Source: a virus. Taken from it: 48,466 bases of DNA. Positions 18,938 to 48,466 of the stretch are shown here, in pieces; the stretch's first letter is position 1, and each line of letters starts with the position of its first letter. Where the stretch lies: positions 1 through 48,466 of IMG/VR virus record IMGVR_UViG_3300021559_000003; one strand, 5' to 3'. A model generated the notes under the pieces. It worked only from the letters and a program-made list of their open reading frames with translations. It had not been told where the DNA came from and did not search any database. Made by a program: the position numbers and the translations under genes.

Positions 18938-20800
18938 ATGCCTGACACCCTCCCTCCCGGCCTAGAGCCTGTCCGTGACCAACTCCTAGAAAACCCTCCC
19001 GCCAAGTGGAAGGAAATCCCTATCTATGACGACGCCTCGGAAGCTACCAAGAAAGCAGTTCTTCGGCTCAATGCCCTCGGGAGTCTCTTCTACTTCTCCA
19101 AAGTCGTCCTTGGACATTCCCGGCTCTCTGCGAATCTACACCGATACATGTGTTCCGAACTCGAGCGCGATACCGTGCGACTCGTCATGGAAATTCCGCG
19201 AGATCACTTCAAAACGACTATCGCTTCTGTATCAGCTCCCATGTGGTGGGCACTCCCTTTCACCAACCAAGATGAAGACCTGATGTACCAGTTGGGCTAC
19301 GACGAAGCGTGGATGAAGTGGATGCAGCGCGCGCACAATGCCGCAAATCGCACACTCATCGCCTCAGAGACGATCCAGAACGCTCGCAAGATTGGGGTGA
19401 AGATCGACGGCCACTACCACTCGAATGCTTTCTTCCGGTTCCTGTTCTCCTCGATCATTCCCAAGGATGACGACCGCTGGAACCAGGATTCGATGACTCA
19501 TCGCCGTCCTGCGGGCGAGTATCACGGGGAAGGGACTTATGATTTCATCGGTGTCAAGGGTGCACTTCAGTCACGGCACTACGATCGTCAGGTACTTGAT
19601 GATCTCGTCGGAGAGAAGGCTATCCTTTCTGACTCTGTGCTGGAATCCACCATTGATTGGGTGCGAAAGCTTCCCGGATGTTTCGATTCCGATCCCGATC
19701 GACCTCATGCACTTGCTGACCAACTATTCATCGGTAACCGTTGGTCGATGCGCGATGTCAATTCTTGGCTGAGAAAGAATGTTCCTAACCTGAACTTCAT
19801 CTCGCACTCGGCGGAAGGTGGATGCTGCGCCATGCACCCGCCCCATCAAATCATCTTTCCCGAAGAGATTACATGGGAAAAGCTGGCGGAATTCAGAGCG
19901 ATTTTCGGAAACTACAATTACGCCGCGCAGATGCTGAATAACCCCGTGGATCAAGAGGCAGTCAAGTTCAAAGACCACTGGCTCAGACACTATTCCGTCG
20001 ATGTCTGGAAAGAACCGAAGGGCTCCGACGTCATCGCCAACTGGCAGCAGTTGTCCTCCTTCAATCGAGGTAATCTAAGTGGAAACCCCGACGATGTAGC
20101 CGAATCGCAAGGCATGACTCCGAAACGGCTGAAAGTAGCTATCAAGCATGAAACACAGCCAGGAGAAACCATCGAAGACATCCGAGCCGGGGATTTGGAC
20201 CGTTTTGCGTTCATGGACCCAAACCATGCCGAGGAAAGAGGGCGCGCGTGCAACGCAATTCTTGTTGTTGGAGTCTACAACCGCCCGCCTGCCAAGCGAA
20301 GGATCTACCTGCTTGATTGTTGGTCGAAAGCCTCTCAACACGAAGAGTGGCTAGAAGCCGCGCTGGGGAATTCTCCGGGGAAACGTGGCTTGGTTCTGAA
20401 GTGGAGATGCCATGTGCTGTTCATCGAATCGGAAGTTGCAGGCCAGTCGGGCTGGAAGTTCGCGATTCGCGAGCGTATGAGAAAGCTTGGACTCGATGCT
20501 TCATTCTCGCTTCGGCCGCTCAAGACCGAGCGCAGCGCGAATGCTAAGAAAAACAGGATTGATGCCATGGAGCCGGTGTTTGAAAACGGGCTATTCTGGG
20601 TGCCGCGGTTTGGCTGTCAGGAGTGGAAGACTGAATTCAGCCAGTACCCTAACGGAGCAACGATGGACCTCATGGATTTAACTGGATATATACCACAGTG
20701 CCTCAGTGCAGGCAGTCGTCTACAAACTCGAGATTGGGTCAAAGAAGAACTACAGCGATCAAAACAGGCGCTCATGAACGTAGGCGTGGCTGGCTATTAA
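18938..20800 (+). CDS. terL: terminase large subunit
   Basis: A 620-aa protein, the DNA-packaging motor ATPase and nuclease. The ATPase half holds a Walker A variant PRDHFKTTIAS (87-97), in which the usual GxGK is replaced by DHFK as in several podophage terminases, and Walker B VLDDLVGE (219-226). The nuclease half has the RNase H-fold acids: FAFMDPN (D427), VLFIESE (about 493-499) and a later Asp (RIDAME). Length is normal for TerL. A minus-strand HNH gene overlaps its last 29 bases. Confidence 0.9.
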   Translation: MPDTLPPGLEPVRDQLLENPPAKWKEIPIYDDASEATKKAVLRLNALGSLFYFSKVVLGHSRLSANLHRYMCSELERDTVRLVMEIPRDHFKTTIASVSAPMWWALPFTNQDEDLMYQLGYDEAWMKWMQRAHNAANRTLIASETIQNARKIGVKIDGHYHSNAFFRFLFSSIIPKDDDRWNQDSMTHRRPAGEYHGEGTYDFIGVKGALQSRHYDRQVLDDLVGEKAILSDSVLESTIDWVRKLPGCFDSDPDRPHALADQLFIGNRWSMRDVNSWLRKNVPNLNFISHSAEGGCCAMHPPHQIIFPEEITWEKLAEFRAIFGNYNYAAQMLNNPVDQEAVKFKDHWLRHYSVDVWKEPKGSDVIANWQQLSSFNRGNLSGNPDDVAESQGMTPKRLKVAIKHETQPGETIEDIRAGDLDRFAFMDPNHAEERGRACNAILVVGVYNRPPAKRRIYLLDCWSKASQHEEWLEAALGNSPGKRGLVLKWRCHVLFIESEVAGQSGWKFAIRERMRKLGLDASFSLRPLKTERSANAKKNRIDAMEPVFENGLFWVPRFGCQEWKTEFSQYPNGATMDLMDLTGYIPQCLSAGSRLQTRDWVKEELQRSKQALMNVGVAGY

Positions 20801-21314
20801 AAAATGCGAATTCTCCGTAACTGCGATTCGCGCCCTCTCGGTATGCTTTGATAGCTTCTTCTTTGGAATCGTAGCGACCTAGATTCTTCATCTTTCCATT
20901 GAATCGGCAGTAAGCCATCCATTTTCCTCGAGACTTATCCCAATGAACTCCGGGGTGGCCGCTGGTGTTATTTCGAGCGATGCTACGGTTCACATTGTTT
21001 TGCCAATCGGCGCAGACTCTCAAATTCGCTCGTCGATTGTCCAATGTGTCGTGATTCCAGTGGTCTACGATACGATCATCCTCGACGCCACAGATAAACC
21101 GAGCCATATATATGAACGTTCGGTCTTTTCCGTGGCGAACGGCGTAGAAGCTTTTCGTTGCCGAGTTCCACCACGCATACCAATTCCACTGATTCAGCCA
21201 TTCATAGTCACTGGCATCAACTAGTGTGTTTTGGTTTTGGCTTAACGGAATGATCTTGTACGATGGGTCGGGCGGCTGGGAAACGTCGTGTCGGTGTACA
21301 CGATATCTGGTCAT
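20772..21314 (-). CDS. HNH homing endonuclease with AP2 domain
   Basis: A 180-aa protein transcribed against its neighbours. Start ATG 21314 has AGGAG 4 bases upstream. The HNH core is VDHWNHDTLDNRRANLRVC (83-101, D84, H85, N93, R95). The AP2 domain follows (SGHPGVHWDKSRGKWMAYCR, KNLGRYDSKEEAIKAYREGA). The enzyme family consists of free-standing homing endonucleases. It sits between terminase and portal, the conserved junction such enzymes prefer. Its AT-richer codons and its orientation show recent entry. Confidence 0.9.
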   Translation of the reverse strand: MTRYRVHRHDVSQPPDPSYKIIPLSQNQNTLVDASDYEWLNQWNWYAWWNSATKSFYAVRHGKDRTFIYMARFICGVEDDRIVDHWNHDTLDNRRANLRVCADWQNNVNRSIARNNTSGHPGVHWDKSRGKWMAYCRFNGKMKNLGRYDSKEEAIKAYREGANRSYGEFAFFNSQPRLRS

Positions 21315-21365
21315 GATGCTCCTGTGACAGCAGGAAAGTCGTGCTAGACTCAGCCGCATAATACC

Positions 21366-23324
21366 ATGCCAATACCTGCCGAACTCCCACTCACGAAGCA
21401 CTTTTCAAGCGAAAGAATCATCGGCATCGAGAAGTACGCGAGTGAGCGTCTTGAGTCTCTCGTGCGAGGGCTGAGAGATTTAAGAACAGACAAGATCAAG
21501 CGATTCAGAAAGATTTACGATGGCACGCCTCGCGAGAAAACCAAGTCGTTTCCCTGGCAGAACGCCTCGAACCTCGTCATCCAGCTTGTAGGCTCGTTCT
21601 CCGATCAGTTAGTCGCCAAGATTGTGATGTCGGAATTCGGCGTCGACCCATTCTGGCCGGCTGAACTGGTAGGCGAGTTCGAGCGCGACTTCCATGCCGA
21701 AGAGATGCGCTCTGCGGTTCAGGAAATGATGGAAGTTCAGGCGCTAGAACCTAAGCTGCTCAATCTCCTGCCCAAGTACACAATCTGGACGCGGACATTC
21801 GTGAAGTATGGCTTTGGCGCAATCAAGGCCATGCCAGAGAAAACCATCGAGCAAGTCGCGATGGTCGAGGATCAAGGCCGGGTGTTGTTCGAGGATTACG
21901 TCAAGCACGAAGGGCCAATCTGTCTCCCCATCATGTTTGAAGACTTCCTCATGCCTGCGACCACGATTGAACTGGAGCGAGCGCCATTCATCGCTCAACG
22001 AGCCCGGTTGCAGCGGTTTCAGGTTGAGCAGTTCCGTTGGGACAAGACTTTCAATCGTGGGGTCATCACGGAAATTCTGAAGCGGCCGACACGGACGGGC
22101 CCCTCTGACACGCAGCGTGACATCGAGAATGAGTCAGGAGCGCGAACCGATAGCGGCTCGACTGAGGAAGAGTGGGACTTCTACGAGATGCACTTCCCTT
22201 ATCAGGTTTTGGGGAAGCGGTTCCAGCTCATCCTGACCGGCTGTGCGGACGACATGGGCACGGATCTCCGAGTCGCCAAGTCGGTGTTCAACTGGCTTCC
22301 GGACAATGCCCTGCCCTACATCGGAGCTCGGCTTGGCAACGATGGAGAGAGAGCGTATGGCAAAGGCTTTTGTGAAATGCTCCGCGATTACCAAGAAGAA
22401 ATATCCGCTATTCACAATCGCCGCGGCGATGCTTCGACGGCAGCCAATACCAACATTTTCCGTTTCTCTCCGGGACAGCAACTCGATGCGCAATTTTCGA
22501 TCTATCCTATGGCTGGGATCACAGCGGAGAAGGATGGTTTTGAGGTTGTGCCTCTTGGACGCACGGCGAATGAAACCATTAAAGACGAGCAACTAGTTCT
22601 GCAGGAAGCGCAGGATCGCGCCGGGGTAGGGCCGTCCAGTTCTGGTCAGGGTGCCGGGACGGTAAACAAAAAGGGCGCCTACTCGGCTATGGGAACGTTC
22701 GCCGTAATGCAGGAAGGCAACACACGCGCGAACCTGAATGTGACCGAATTCCGCCAGTCGCACTATAGCCTCGGCAGTCTGGTGCTGGCCTATCACGCGC
22801 ACTTTGGTATCCCGGAGAAAGACAAGAAAGCCTACGGAAAGCAGGCGCAGTGGCTGGACAAGGCCTTGGATCTGGTGAAGCAAGGCCGACTCATCATTCC
22901 AATCCGTGCTGCGACGGGCTCGGTCAACAAGGAAATCGAGAAGCAAAACTTGATGCTCCTGCTCAATAACTGGCGCGCGCATGGGCAGATGGTTTCCCAA
23001 CTCTTGCAACAAGCCTCGAATCCGATGGCTCCGCCCCAGTTGCAGGATTATCTTGGGCAATTGATTCTCGGTGGAAACCTGCTGATGACCAAGATTTGCA
23101 AGGACTTTGGCATCTCCGATCCAAGCTTCATGATTCCTGAGCCGATGGGGATTCAGGAAAAGGCGGATGCGTTCAAGAAGCAGGTCGATCAGGCCAAGGC
23201 GTTGCAGGCACAGCAAGAGCAGCGGAAATTAGGGCAAGGTGGACAGCCTCCGGGAGTGCAAATGCCGCAAGTTCAGGCCGAGGGGGCGCCGGGGGCGGGA
23301 TCAGGGGAGCCGCAAATCCAATGA
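21366..23324 (+). CDS. portal protein
   Basis: A 652-aa protein. The portal is the dodecameric ring at the capsid vertex through which DNA is packaged and ejected. It follows the terminase, is followed by a small protein and the scaffold, and has the expected size. Family features seen are the N-terminal KSFPWQNASNL (W..N motif of podovirus-like portals), the LPYIGARLGNDGERAYGKGF/CEMLRDYQEEISAIHN helix region (about 335-375), and a Gln/Ala/Pro-rich disordered C-terminus of about 60 residues. No protease or MuF fusion is seen. Confidence 0.85.
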   Translation: MPIPAELPLTKHFSSERIIGIEKYASERLESLVRGLRDLRTDKIKRFRKIYDGTPREKTKSFPWQNASNLVIQLVGSFSDQLVAKIVMSEFGVDPFWPAELVGEFERDFHAEEMRSAVQEMMEVQALEPKLLNLLPKYTIWTRTFVKYGFGAIKAMPEKTIEQVAMVEDQGRVLFEDYVKHEGPICLPIMFEDFLMPATTIELERAPFIAQRARLQRFQVEQFRWDKTFNRGVITEILKRPTRTGPSDTQRDIENESGARTDSGSTEEEWDFYEMHFPYQVLGKRFQLILTGCADDMGTDLRVAKSVFNWLPDNALPYIGARLGNDGERAYGKGFCEMLRDYQEEISAIHNRRGDASTAANTNIFRFSPGQQLDAQFSIYPMAGITAEKDGFEVVPLGRTANETIKDEQLVLQEAQDRAGVGPSSSGQGAGTVNKKGAYSAMGTFAVMQEGNTRANLNVTEFRQSHYSLGSLVLAYHAHFGIPEKDKKAYGKQAQWLDKALDLVKQGRLIIPIRAATGSVNKEIEKQNLMLLLNNWRAHGQMVSQLLQQASNPMAPPQLQDYLGQLILGGNLLMTKICKDFGISDPSFMIPEPMGIQEKADAFKKQVDQAKALQAQQEQRKLGQGGQPPGVQMPQVQAEGAPGAGSGEPQIQ

Positions 23325-27348: not shown

Positions 27349-27843
27349 ATGAAAATTATCCCTCTCACTCGCGGGCTCCAAACGCTGGTAGACGATGAGG
27401 ATTTCGACCAACTCAATAAGCACAAGTGGTATGCGCAGCGCTGTAAATCAGGTGACAACGTTAGGTTTTATGCGGCTCGCCGGGATGTAGTCACAAGAAA
27501 GATCGTTCTGATGCACAGGCAACTTCTCGGCTTAGAAAAACGCAGCGACCACGGCGACCACAAGAACGGTGACTCGCTGAATAACCAGCGATACAATCTT
27601 CGGCCCGCAACTCATCGACAGAATCTTTGCAACACCGGCAAGCGCAACCAAGCCACCACGTCCAAGCATAAAGGCGTTAGCTTCTACAGGAACACTGGCG
27701 AGTGGGAAAGCTATGTGTGGGTCGATGGGAAGAAGCGGCGCCAAGGATATTTCGAGACTGAGCACGAAGCGGCTTTGGGCTACAACTTCGCCGCATTGCA
27801 TCACTACGGCGAGTTCGCAGTGCTAAACGAGGTTCATGTCTGA
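27349..27843 (+). CDS. HNH homing endonuclease with AP2 domain
   Basis: A 164-aa protein starts MKIIPLTRGLQTLVDDEDFD. The family's opening (NKHKWYAQRC) is followed by the HNH core DHGDHKNGDSLNNQRYNLRP. The AP2-like domain then reads TSKHKGVSFYRNTGEWESYV, GKKRRQGYFETEHEAALGYN. It is the same subfamily as the minus-strand gene at 20772, but here oriented with transcription. It is placed between two small head-region genes. Its stop shares bases with the next ATG. Confidence 0.88.
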   Translation: MKIIPLTRGLQTLVDDEDFDQLNKHKWYAQRCKSGDNVRFYAARRDVVTRKIVLMHRQLLGLEKRSDHGDHKNGDSLNNQRYNLRPATHRQNLCNTGKRNQATTSKHKGVSFYRNTGEWESYVWVDGKKRRQGYFETEHEAALGYNFAALHHYGEFAVLNEVHV

Positions 27844-45121: not shown

Positions 45122-45385
45122 ATGAGCGGACGCAGTGCGAACGACAGCATTGAAAGCGCCAAGAGAACGATCAAGAGTCTCTACCAGGGCGTGGCCGGCG
45201 TGGGCGGCAGCGAAGAGGAAACCAGCAAAATTGGCGGCATGGCCCGCATGGGTGCGGACGCTGAAGGAAAGTTGAGCGAAGCGCCACATCACAGAATTGA
45301 CGCTGAGTATCGGCCCGAAGGCAACGCCACAAAGGGCGAAATGGGCGTTGGCTACGGCGTCGGCCGCACGTTCGGCGGAAGCTAG
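45122..45385 (+). CDS. small hypothetical protein, 87 aa
   Basis: AAGGAGACAAC before the ATG is an excellent ribosome site. The protein reads MSGRSANDSIESAKRTIKSL, then Gly/Ala/Glu-rich sequence ending VGYGVGRTFGGS. It is polar and probably disordered with two short helices. No family is recognised. It lies between the ejection genes and the ATP-grasp gene. Confidence 0.55.
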   Translation: MSGRSANDSIESAKRTIKSLYQGVAGVGGSEEETSKIGGMARMGADAEGKLSEAPHHRIDAEYRPEGNATKGEMGVGYGVGRTFGGS

Positions 45386-45387
45386 TC

Positions 45388-45452
45388 TTCAGGGCGGGCC
45401 ATCGGGTTGGGTGCTCTGCGGTAGAGGCATCTCATCTTGGTCCGCCCCTGAA
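45388..45452 (+). other. structured leader before the ATP-grasp gene
   Basis: TTCAGGGCGGGCC (45388-45400) and GGTCCGCCCCTGAA (45439-45452) form a long stem (13 versus 14 bases, one bulge and one mismatch). They enclose a small hairpin CTCT/AGAG (45414-45417/45423-45426). The stem ends 5 bases before the ATG at 45458, so it would cover the ribosome site. No known riboswitch consensus fits what I can see. Confidence 0.55.
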
Positions 45453-45457
45453 CTTCC

Positions 45458-46813
45458 ATGAAATTCCTCTTCGTCTCCGAGCACGGCGAGATTGCCGACC
45501 TAGCTTCCTACCTGCTTCACGTCGAAGGCCACGACGTACTCCTGCATATCACCAACCATGACTGCTCTCGCATCGCAGAGGGCATCATCCCCCACATCAA
45601 AGACTGGTATCGCTACATGGGCAAGGGCTACATCTTCGTCTTCGATGGCTGCTCGCATGGCGATTGGCAAGACTGGCTCCGGGAGATGGGCGAGCACGTT
45701 GTCGGTGGCTCGGCCATGGGAGACGATCTCGAGAATGACAGGCAGGCGGGGCAGAAGTGGTTTCGCGAAGCTGGCTTCGATCAGCCGTGGTCGCAAAACT
45801 TTACCGACGCGGATGAAGTGCTGGCCTTTGTCGAAGAGCATCCCGAGACTCGCTTCATCCTGAAGCAGAATGGCGACGCGCCAAAGCATCTTTCGCACAA
45901 GGGCAAGTTCGAGAATTCCGAAGACATGATCTTCCACTTGCGCGAGCTCAAGAAGTCTTGGAACGAGATGGAGTTTGGCAAGTTTGACTGCGACTTGATG
46001 GAAGTGGTGGAAGGACTCGAGGTAGCGGCATCAGCGTTCTGGAATGGCGAAGACTGGCTGCGCAACTCTGCCGGCAAGGTGGTAGGGTTCCTGAACTTTG
46101 AGGAGAAGAAAGAAGGCAACGATGGAACGGGGGAGACTTGCGGTGAGATGGGAACCACCTTCATCGGAGTGGACGAGGGCGACGGACTATTTGCTTCCAT
46201 CCTCCTACGTCCTGAAATCGAACAACGTTTGCGCGAATCAGGATTTCGCGGCGTATTTGACATTAACTGTATCCACGCAGACGGTCGTTTGGTAGCCCTA
46301 GAGCCCACCTGCCGTTTCGGCGTGCCTGCCTCCTCCTACGAGTTCATCGAAGGACTGGCGAGCCCGCTAGGCGAGTTGCTGAGCGCTTTAGCAAAGGGGA
46401 TCAACCGTCGCATCGAGATCCACGAAGGCGTGGGCATGGTCATGTGCCTCGTCGCCAAACCGTTTCCGCTCGAGGTGGATGTCGAGCCGGAAGGAACCTC
46501 GGTCGGAGAGAAGCTTTGGATCATGCAGGATGGCGTCCCGGTATCTGACTTCACCGATGAGCAGCGCCAGCACATCCATCTCTACAACTTCGAGCGCGTC
46601 GAGGACGAAGAGACAGGGGAAATCTGCTACAAGGTTCCAACCAAGAGCGGCTACCTTCTCACGGTGACCGGCCGTGGCTCTCGAGTGTCCCTAACTCGCG
46701 ATGCGTTGATTCACTACATCAAGCAAAACGTCTTCGTCCCTGGCATGAAATACCGCACCGACATCGGCGCGCGCGTTGAGGCAGTCGAGATGGAACTTGA
46801 GGCTGCGCAATGA
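45458..46813 (+). CDS. ATP-grasp enzyme, PurD (GAR synthetase)-like
   Basis: A 451-aa protein starts MKFLFVSEHGEIADLASYLL. Its order matches phosphoribosylamine-glycine ligase: a Rossmann-like first domain, HVVGGSAMGDDLENDRQAG (80-98), a nucleotide-binding strand RFILKQNGD (132-140), EVVEGLEVA (182-190), and the catalytic grasp end FDINCIHADGRLVALEPTCR (267-286) followed by FGVP. The family joins an acid to an amine using ATP. True PurD keeps the first-domain glycine loop, which is altered here (SEHGEI), so the substrate may not be phosphoribosylamine. It is preceded by a structured leader and followed by a small partner gene (ATGA). Confidence 0.72.
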   Translation: MKFLFVSEHGEIADLASYLLHVEGHDVLLHITNHDCSRIAEGIIPHIKDWYRYMGKGYIFVFDGCSHGDWQDWLREMGEHVVGGSAMGDDLENDRQAGQKWFREAGFDQPWSQNFTDADEVLAFVEEHPETRFILKQNGDAPKHLSHKGKFENSEDMIFHLRELKKSWNEMEFGKFDCDLMEVVEGLEVAASAFWNGEDWLRNSAGKVVGFLNFEEKKEGNDGTGETCGEMGTTFIGVDEGDGLFASILLRPEIEQRLRESGFRGVFDINCIHADGRLVALEPTCRFGVPASSYEFIEGLASPLGELLSALAKGINRRIEIHEGVGMVMCLVAKPFPLEVDVEPEGTSVGEKLWIMQDGVPVSDFTDEQRQHIHLYNFERVEDEETGEICYKVPTKSGYLLTVTGRGSRVSLTRDALIHYIKQNVFVPGMKYRTDIGARVEAVEMELEAAQ

Positions 46814-47184
46814 ATATCCTGCTTGAAACCATTGCTCACGAAGCGCAGCGTTATCCCACGGTTGGGGATTGGACCGTTAAAGACGGCAACATTCGAATCA
46901 TGGTCAGCAAAATGGAGCCCGAGGATTACTCCTTCCTCGTTGGTCTGCATGAGCTGGTGGAAGTCTGGCTATGCAGGAAGCGCGGCATCTCGCAGGAAGC
47001 GGCCGATGCCTTCGACATTGAGTTTGAAAAGAATCGGCCCGAGGGAAACATGAATGAGCCAGGAGACGACCCGAAAGCGCCGTATGTTCGTGAGCACCAA
47101 TTTGCCACGAAGATCGAGCGGCTCATGGCGGAAGAGTTGGGCGTAGAGTGGGATGCGTACAACGCCGCAGTTGAGAATCTTTAG
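46810..47184 (+). CDS. HELVE-motif protein, possible metalloprotein
   Basis: A 124-aa protein. LHELVEVWLCRKRGISQEAA contains an HExxE motif as seen in some zincin-like active sites, and it is followed by DAFDIEFEKNRP and a C-terminal HQFATKIERLMAEELG with another His. Similar hypothetical proteins with an HELVE helix, acidic follow-up and a late His are common in phages. The catalytic status is not established. The gene overlaps the ATP-grasp stop (ATGA), so the two products probably act together or are co-translated. Confidence 0.62.
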   Translation: MNILLETIAHEAQRYPTVGDWTVKDGNIRIMVSKMEPEDYSFLVGLHELVEVWLCRKRGISQEAADAFDIEFEKNRPEGNMNEPGDDPKAPYVREHQFATKIERLMAEELGVEWDAYNAAVENL

Positions 47185-47726: not shown

Positions 47727-47966
47727 ATGCTGCAACCGAAAGAATCGAAGTACGACGTTGCGCTCCGGGAAGTCGTCTCCGGGATTCAGGTTCTCATCTA
47801 CCGGCGCGAAACGACTCCCATCCGCGACCGGGACGAGGTGCACATAGATGTCGAGCGCCGCTTGGGGGAAATCCGGAAGTACGCCACAAATGGAAAGCGT
47901 AGTTGGCGAAAGGGCCTTTTGGAACTGGCTGCGTACTGTGTTTTTGCTGCGGCAGCAGACGACTAA
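47727..47966 (+). CDS. small lysis-cassette protein, 79 aa
   Basis: MLQPKESKYDVALREVVSGI is followed by charged sequence and a hydrophobic C-terminal helix (LLELAAYCVFAAAADD). The final helix could anchor it to a membrane. It ends 1 base before the start of the cell-wall enzyme, and its frame is separate. The function is unknown. Confidence 0.5.
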   Translation: MLQPKESKYDVALREVVSGIQVLIYRRETTPIRDRDEVHIDVERRLGEIRKYATNGKRSWRKGLLELAAYCVFAAAADD

Positions 47967-47967
47967 C

Positions 47968-48372
47968 ATGTGGACCTACGAGCAGGCGACTGGCAAATTT
48001 TACACTCCCGATGGATTCCTGACGGCCTTCGGATACTCCGGCCGCGCTGATGGCAAAAACAATCCTGAAATGCAGAGCGTGCCAAACGTTGGTCCTATCC
48101 CGGAAGGCATCTATTCGATCGGCCGCCCAGAAGATACTTTGACTCACGGGCCATTCGTGCTCCCGCTCACTCCGGATCCATCCAACCAGATGTTCTCGAG
48201 GGGCGGGTTCCTGATTCACGGTGACTCCATCGTTGCCCCCGGTTCAGCCTCCGAGGGCTGCATCATCCTCCCCCGCTTAGTCAGAAATGAGATTGCTGCG
48301 AGCCTCGATAGGACGCTCAAGGTAATCTCTGGGCCGTTTCAGGCTGCGGACTTCACTGACGAAGCTACTTGA
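47968..48372 (+). CDS. DUF2778/Tlde1-like L,D-transpeptidase-fold lysis enzyme
   Basis: A 134-aa protein starts MWTYEQATGKFYTPDGFLTA. The conserved catalytic set is visible: FLIHGD (81-86, with catalytic His84) and SEGCII (95-100, with nucleophilic Cys98), in the H-G-x8-9-S-x-G-C order of the L,D-transpeptidase fold. GPIPEGIYSIG (about 42-52) is the DUF2778 signature. Family members outside phages are bacterial effectors (Tlde1) that cut or swap cell-wall D-amino acids. At the end of the lysis cassette it is the likely endolysin. Its 3' end is repeated at position 1-33. Confidence 0.8.
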   Translation: MWTYEQATGKFYTPDGFLTAFGYSGRADGKNNPEMQSVPNVGPIPEGIYSIGRPEDTLTHGPFVLPLTPDPSNQMFSRGGFLIHGDSIVAPGSASEGCIILPRLVRNEIAASLDRTLKVISGPFQAADFTDEAT

Positions 48373-48466
48373 TTGGGGCGGGGCGGACTTCGCCATTATC
48401 GACTCTGCTGAACCCCAGGATGAAGCCCCCGGAATCAATAAAGCGATCGACAACGACTCCCATGAC
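48340..48466. repeat. right copy of 127-bp terminal direct repeat
   Basis: Identical to positions 1-127. It contains the 3' end of the lysis enzyme and the end of the convergent membrane protein gene. Confidence 0.95.

Follow-up and report, generated by a model that had tools for sequence, protein, structure and literature searches.

An ATP-grasp protein encoded late in a virus genome is best explained, with rather better than even confidence, as a phage carboxylate-amine ligase that derives from GAR synthetase, no longer acts as one, and is often coupled to a putative metal-dependent partner designated HELVE. As judged by sequence comparison, the protein belongs to a distinct ATP-grasp family related to GAR synthetase, and its substrate has probably changed. 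The DNA analysed, here called the window, was the stretch of 48,466 nt from IMG/VR virus record IMGVR_UViG_3300021559_000003. A sequence-only reading of this locus had proposed such an enzyme behind a regulated leader; the enzyme claim stands and extends to a two-gene cassette of uncultivated phages, and the leader claim falls. It seems that phages, and a small number of microbes with plasmids, have converted a core purine enzyme into a ligase with some other substrate.

The terminal 127 bases of the window were the same as its first 127 bases (nt 1-127 and 48340-48466), as seen through the related record L002; the record is thus probably a complete circular map. Features of the locus and of related loci are given in Table 1. 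The ligase and HELVE open reading frames overlapped by 4 nt (ATGA), as the sequence-only reading had noted. Its placement of the ligase in the structural operon was also borne out, since gene order and homologues put the gene after virion-type genes and before lysis-type genes. A domain search of six large proteins encoded upstream of ligase genes revealed an SNase domain in one and nothing else. The sequence-only reading had suggested that the enzyme may build a modified nucleotide or peptide-like compound; no DNA-modification partner was seen among the scanned genes, but HELVE was found as a linked one. At nt 47848-48372, the window encoded a Tlde1-domain protein (Pfam E 2.4e-14), likely a lysis gene, a homologue of which was located immediately upstream of the ligase in L055.

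Table 1. Features of the ligase locus in the window and of related loci
Feature	Coordinates	Strand	Remarks
Small Gly-rich protein gene, 87 aa	45122..45385	+	Precedes the ligase; close relatives have a homologue immediately ahead of their ligase gene
Intergenic hairpin, 14-bp outer helix with one bulge plus inner hairpin	45388..45452	+	Phage-specific; without U-run behind it
GAR-synthetase-like ATP-grasp ligase, 451 aa	45458..46813	+	Uninterrupted frame from ATG to TGA
HELVE protein, 124 aa, HExxE...D...E...H...E, putative metal-dependent ligase partner	46810..47184	+	Overlaps the ligase frame
Intein-bearing ligase	L073:5950-8391		Intein in active-site motif
Intein-bearing ligase (G067/L294)	L294:429-2666		Intein in active-site motif
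Cellular plasmid member, Halarchaeum	L121:9989-11305		
Cellular plasmid member, Roseomonas	L122:10001-11275		
Cellular plasmid member, Sphingomonas	L123:10001-11301		Frame split

The purD model, a family profile and the full-length fold agreed on the ATP-grasp order of GAR synthetase that the sequence-only reading had seen in the enzyme. NCBIfam purD (TIGR00877) matched the ligase with E 5.8e-14 and 51.7 bits, against a cut-off of 288 bits; in a second scoring with the purD model the ligase reached 50.5 bits, and 13 of 14 control genomes passed the cut-off. The Pfam matches to GARS_C (E 0.0017) and GARS_A (E 0.12) were both below cut-off. When a profile of 32 family members was compared with solved structures, the best match was the GAR synthetase 2yw2 (E 3.2e-44), followed by ten further matches that were also GAR synthetase chains. 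The AlphaFold model of the ligase (pLDDT 89.9) was aligned by VIA-align with 2yw2_A over 399 residues (Z 33.3, rmsd 3.3), showing the GAR synthetase fold in full length; the best fold other than GAR synthetase was PurK (Z 24.3), and a viral structure library held no full-length match to the model (best TM 0.45). The Pfam scan of the 32 members listed only GARS_A, GARS_C, ATP-grasp_3 and ATP-grasp_4, and the C domain of GAR synthetase was present in 30 of them; models for the R2K clade of ATP-grasp ligases exist in Pfam. In the tree, a branch of 3.08 separated the family from canonical PurD, represented by two rows, with support of 100/100.

Residues reported to bind ATP/Mg and glycine in A. 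aeolicus PurD (PMC8880213) were mapped through the alignment of the family profile. Counts refer to 113 aligned family rows (55 at 95% non-redundancy), two of them from cellular members on plasmids. Excluded were the duplicate L002, the intein-bearing L073 and L123, whose frame is split. The predicted ATP/Mg residues E92, R95, K136, E188, K217 and E282 were invariant in all 113 rows, and the ligase has the features of an ATP-grasp enzyme, namely the fold, two basic residues, a glutamate, a lysine and a metal-side glutamate. Of the A. aeolicus ATP/Mg residues, K103 was R in the family, and the E185 column held Q in 89 rows, M in 23 and E in one. Both glycine residues were exchanged, D212 for E in 113/113 rows and E292 for non-acidic residues (all six listed types) in 111/113, as was the metal-side N285 for T in every row. 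The window carries E215, E230 and T284 at the substituted positions; R287 was kept, the predicted carboxylate Arg in the window being R286. The GGMG motif read GEMG or GEQG, with E at the second G throughout the 113 rows. The altered first-domain loop of the sequence-only reading was confirmed, GGREH being found in none of the 113 rows and in both canonical ones; this loop of the PurD N-domain presumably has a role in substrate handling. DGLAxGKG was likewise found in no family row, and the C-domain motif RxDIG was retained. Inteins usually occupy conserved active sites, and in two distant phages inteins with LAGLIDADG domains were located at the same point inside the ligase motif ExT^CR(F/P)G. 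The two computable pairs among five tried gave dN/dS values of 0.08 and 0.12.

The family is common in uncultivated phages and practically absent from PHROGs and from nearly all annotated phage records. Viral contigs yielded 252 relatives of the ligase, of which the best 80 were kept. A search with the window protein gave a single match, MW202796.1, among 50,697 annotated phage records; there, an unannotated ligase gene of 443 aa (L003:19935-21266) was located at the end of the virion genes; PHROGs gave a marginal match for one of 32 family members. Family members were carried by three of 72,556 plasmid records, outside purine operons and with no HELVE-like gene named in the nearby annotation. 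Two pattern scans of genome contigs found no relative, a negative that holds for the patterns used. Several records filed as phage were rejected as bacterial DNA with canonical purD: L117 and L119 lie next to purH, and L118 is a fragment of a purine operon. MT835991 was a further match of this kind, and the remaining ones were judged by record listing.

HELVE marks a two-gene ligase cassette in many phages. It was encoded in nine of 22 ligase records, comprising 9/12 of the window-type branch and 0/10 of other branches, and in 2 of 18 capsid relatives. Its absence from the sister phage L053 (a 48,424-base record) and from all ten other-branch records indicates that the ligase does not always need HELVE. 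In the opposite direction, 164 HELVE relatives were found and 80 were kept, 45 of which (L165, L166 and the records with a length of roughly 25 kb upward) were covered by the ligase-profile search. The profile matched 38 of these 45, and in 29 of the 38 the two genes were on the same strand within 600 nt, in either order. None of 15 control records matched, these being 14 of 25 RusA loci plus L125, a set not matched by phage type; the linkage was significant by Fisher's test (p 3e-9), a value that ignores relatedness. The 22 of 38 matches that scored below 55 bits were taken as real because 21 of them were within 420 nt of HELVE and, except for the fragment G040, had open frames of 417-463 aa. 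Some HELVE partners were very divergent ATP-grasp proteins, barely or not recognised by Pfam.

In all 58 HELVE sequences compared (that of the window and those of 57 among the 80 kept loci), residues H47, E48, E51, D69, E83, H96 and E103 were invariant, a pattern expected of a metal site. The motif formed by the first three is HExxE in 58/58 and differs from the zincin motif HExxH. Foldseek found no match to the HELVE model at E 0.001; in a fold comparison the best Z was 4.8, with zinc peptidases among the weak top rows. A DtxR-like metal-binding domain was considered and rejected, the match to Pfam Fe_dep_repr_C (E 0.023, and 5e-4 in one homologue) being below cut-off. HELVE had no match in annotated phage records, nor in plasmids when one homologue served as query. 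It would most likely act as a metal-dependent hydrolase on the same chemistry as the ligase. This partner offers a handle on the system, namely two small proteins and one prediction, that an ATP-dependent bond would be made and a bond broken in a metal-dependent manner.

The locus has exchanged its ligase among close relatives. A capsid protein was common to 18 records, of which seven carried the ligase, seven the small gene and six both, always adjacent; most of the records without both were short contigs. Phages with 79-92% identity in the capsid protein had one or the other of two ligase subfamilies in the slot that follows the small gene, and ligase identity at this one locus ranged from 22 to 71% among close phages. 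Four of the six (G028, G033, G036 and G037; capsid protein 79-88% identical) had the second subfamily, 22-24% identical to the window ligase, which keeps E215, K217, E282, T284 and R286; its E292 column held one acidic residue, D in G033, which counts against uniform loss. The flanks of L165 were 83-100% identical to the window in nearly all 60-nt blocks, and the swapped block extended from the C-terminal half of the small gene to the end of the ligase, which was 61% identical. On the minus strand of L165, a gene assigned by eye to the HNH type because it resembles window frames (L165:1071-1613) occupied precisely the gap that separates small gene and ligase, the place of the hairpin in the window. 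The window frames similar to it are at nt 20772-21401 and 27349-27843.

The joint swap of ligase allele and small-protein C terminus could have arisen by gene conversion driven by a homing endonuclease, in which case it would be uninformative on substrate pairing. The position of the HNH-type gene in L165 points this way, as does the course of identity, which is only 0.47-0.75 across nt 45321-46760 and climbs back to 0.83-1.0 further downstream; however, other swapped relatives have no HNH gene in the gap, and a ligase of the same family was kept in 7/7 records covering the region, which leaves this origin a real possibility at somewhat less than an even chance. The small protein was detected in no clade other than that of the window and thus cannot be a universal substrate. 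Its tail may be a substrate or may just happen to fall within the exchanged tract.

The chemistry of GAR synthetase would be retained, with ATP and Mg converting a carboxylate to an acyl phosphate for attack by an amine. Since the glycine- and phosphoribosylamine-binding residues are exchanged, the bond formed is expected to be an amide or peptide-like one with a different substrate. The most plausible substrates would be a small metabolite or a late phage protein, candidates for the latter being the products of the genes just upstream, the small Gly-rich protein and the large virion-type one. A narrower proposal, rather unlikely as it stands, is that the two genes form a widespread phage pair for protein modification, in which the ligase would decorate a protein of the virion, or one that is ejected, with an amino-acid-like group, to be trimmed or removed by the HExxE protein; allele swapping in near-identical phages would then represent a change of modification driven by host or defence. 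A working GAR synthetase, encoded by an auxiliary metabolic gene that would raise the purine supply in the late phase of infection, would agree with RxDIG and with the best homologues of known function, all of which are GAR synthetases; it is nevertheless very improbable, given the distance from the purD cut-off, the family-wide replacement of residues at both substrate sites and the still greater losses in the second subfamily at the same locus. Scarcely better placed, and improbable in our view, is a catalytically dead ATP-grasp fold with a structural or binding role in the virion. The gene does adjoin virion-type genes, and at 13 of 33 loci a large virion-type gene upstream ends in a 4-nt overlap with the ligase start, but the invariant ATP/Mg residues, the two inteins in the active-site motif and the purifying selection all argue for a functional enzyme. 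For the preferred reading, a ligase derived from GAR synthetase with a changed substrate, homology, fold, residue pattern and linkage to HELVE are shown; activity, substrate and the part played by HELVE are inferred from them.

The sequence-only reading had described, in front of the ligase, a stem of 13-14 bp with an inner hairpin that ended 5 bases before the start codon, and this structure was recovered as an outer helix of 14 bp with one bulge, in which nt 45388-45401 pair down to 45452, leaving 5 nt between stem and ATG. The 72-nt leader had a folding energy of -36.7 kcal/mol (z -3.99; 1/200 shuffles equally good), and a looser frame of 101 nt gave z -2.0 (7/200). As 21 of 4839 plus-strand windows of 80 nt reached -35, the leader is among the most stable stretches of the genome and is not unique. 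An upstream GGAAG could lengthen the helix through CUUCC up to the ATG. The stem had been supposed to hide the ribosome site; there was no Shine-Dalgarno-like sequence in the stretch between stem and ATG, and hence nothing obvious to hide. Behind the stem follows CUUCC, without the U-run that, together with a GC-rich stem, characterizes an intrinsic terminator.

Conservation was compared at 33 loci, the window and 32 others. Only in the window (z -3.8) and in L053 (z -3.6) was the upstream stretch clearly more stable than its shuffles, the other 31 having z -1.3 or higher. The hairpin of L053 (z -4.5) occupied the same gap, was followed by TTTTT and was terminator-like; it had no sequence in common with that of the window. 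Five near relatives with the same upstream small gene had gaps of 6, 12, 16 or 9 nt, or overlapping frames. A scan of viral contigs for both stem arms returned the contig of L002 (as L124), whose leader is identical to that of the window, and one unrelated phage, L125, where nearly identical stem arms precede TTTTTT immediately ahead of the start of a gene, again a terminator-like hairpin. Apart from the identical L002, no relative had a homologous stem, and no conserved paired sites with compensatory changes were seen. Relatives that have retained the ligase gene thus do not share the stem, the outcome that the sequence-only reading had named as refuting its proposal. Its suggested riboswitch search gave no family for window or leader either, as Rfam returned 0 matches at gathering score in the window and one chance-level match (E 9.7) for the leader.

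From this comparison the hairpin is concluded to be an intergenic element of local occurrence, neither a conserved switch nor a riboswitch. A ligand- or protein-controlled switch gating ligase translation, as proposed by the sequence-only reading, would draw on the stability of the leader (z -4.0), its position next to the start codon and the hairpin in the same gap of L053; with stable structure in 2/33 loci and of unrelated sequence, gaps of 6-16 nt or overlap in the five near relatives, an HNH gene in the gap of L165, no Rfam match and no Shine-Dalgarno sequence to hide, it can hardly be credited. Probably the window hairpin separates the small gene from the ligase gene as a leaky or decayed terminator or as an insulator. 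That it lowers expression of the ligase relative to the small virion-type gene, as a transcription terminator or attenuator in L053 and a decayed form in the window, has about an even chance: the T-runs of L053 and L125 favour it, whereas the window stem lacks a U-run, the terminator scan called neither hairpin, and two phages are concerned.

In the portions available of a literature drawn mostly from outside subscription journals, including PMC7824862, PMC5512222, PMC4431377 and PMC8880213, no PurD-like phage ATP-grasp family and no ATP-grasp/HELVE pair was recognised. Among known systems, GAR synthetase itself (PurD, EC 6.3.4.13; TIGR00877) shares with the ligase the fold over its entire length (domains N, A, B and C), the ATP/Mg residues and RxDIG, but the ligase is changed at the D212, E292 and N285 sites, in GGREH and in DGLAxGKG, and is far under the cut-off of the model. 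The R2K clade comprises phage ATP-grasp peptide ligases proposed to modify proteins, and the ligase is likewise a phage-borne ATP-grasp enzyme; the available text of PMC4431377 and PMC7824862 names no PurD-like member or peptidase partner in that clade, whereas most members of the ligase family have the C domain of GAR synthetase. The ATP-grasp ligase RimK works with the protease RimB, which is described as retropepsin-like in the available part of PMC11957791. This couple, likened by description and not by sequence, may serve as a model for the way in which an ATP-grasp ligase and a protease work together, although RimB is retropepsin-like and HELVE carries HExxE.
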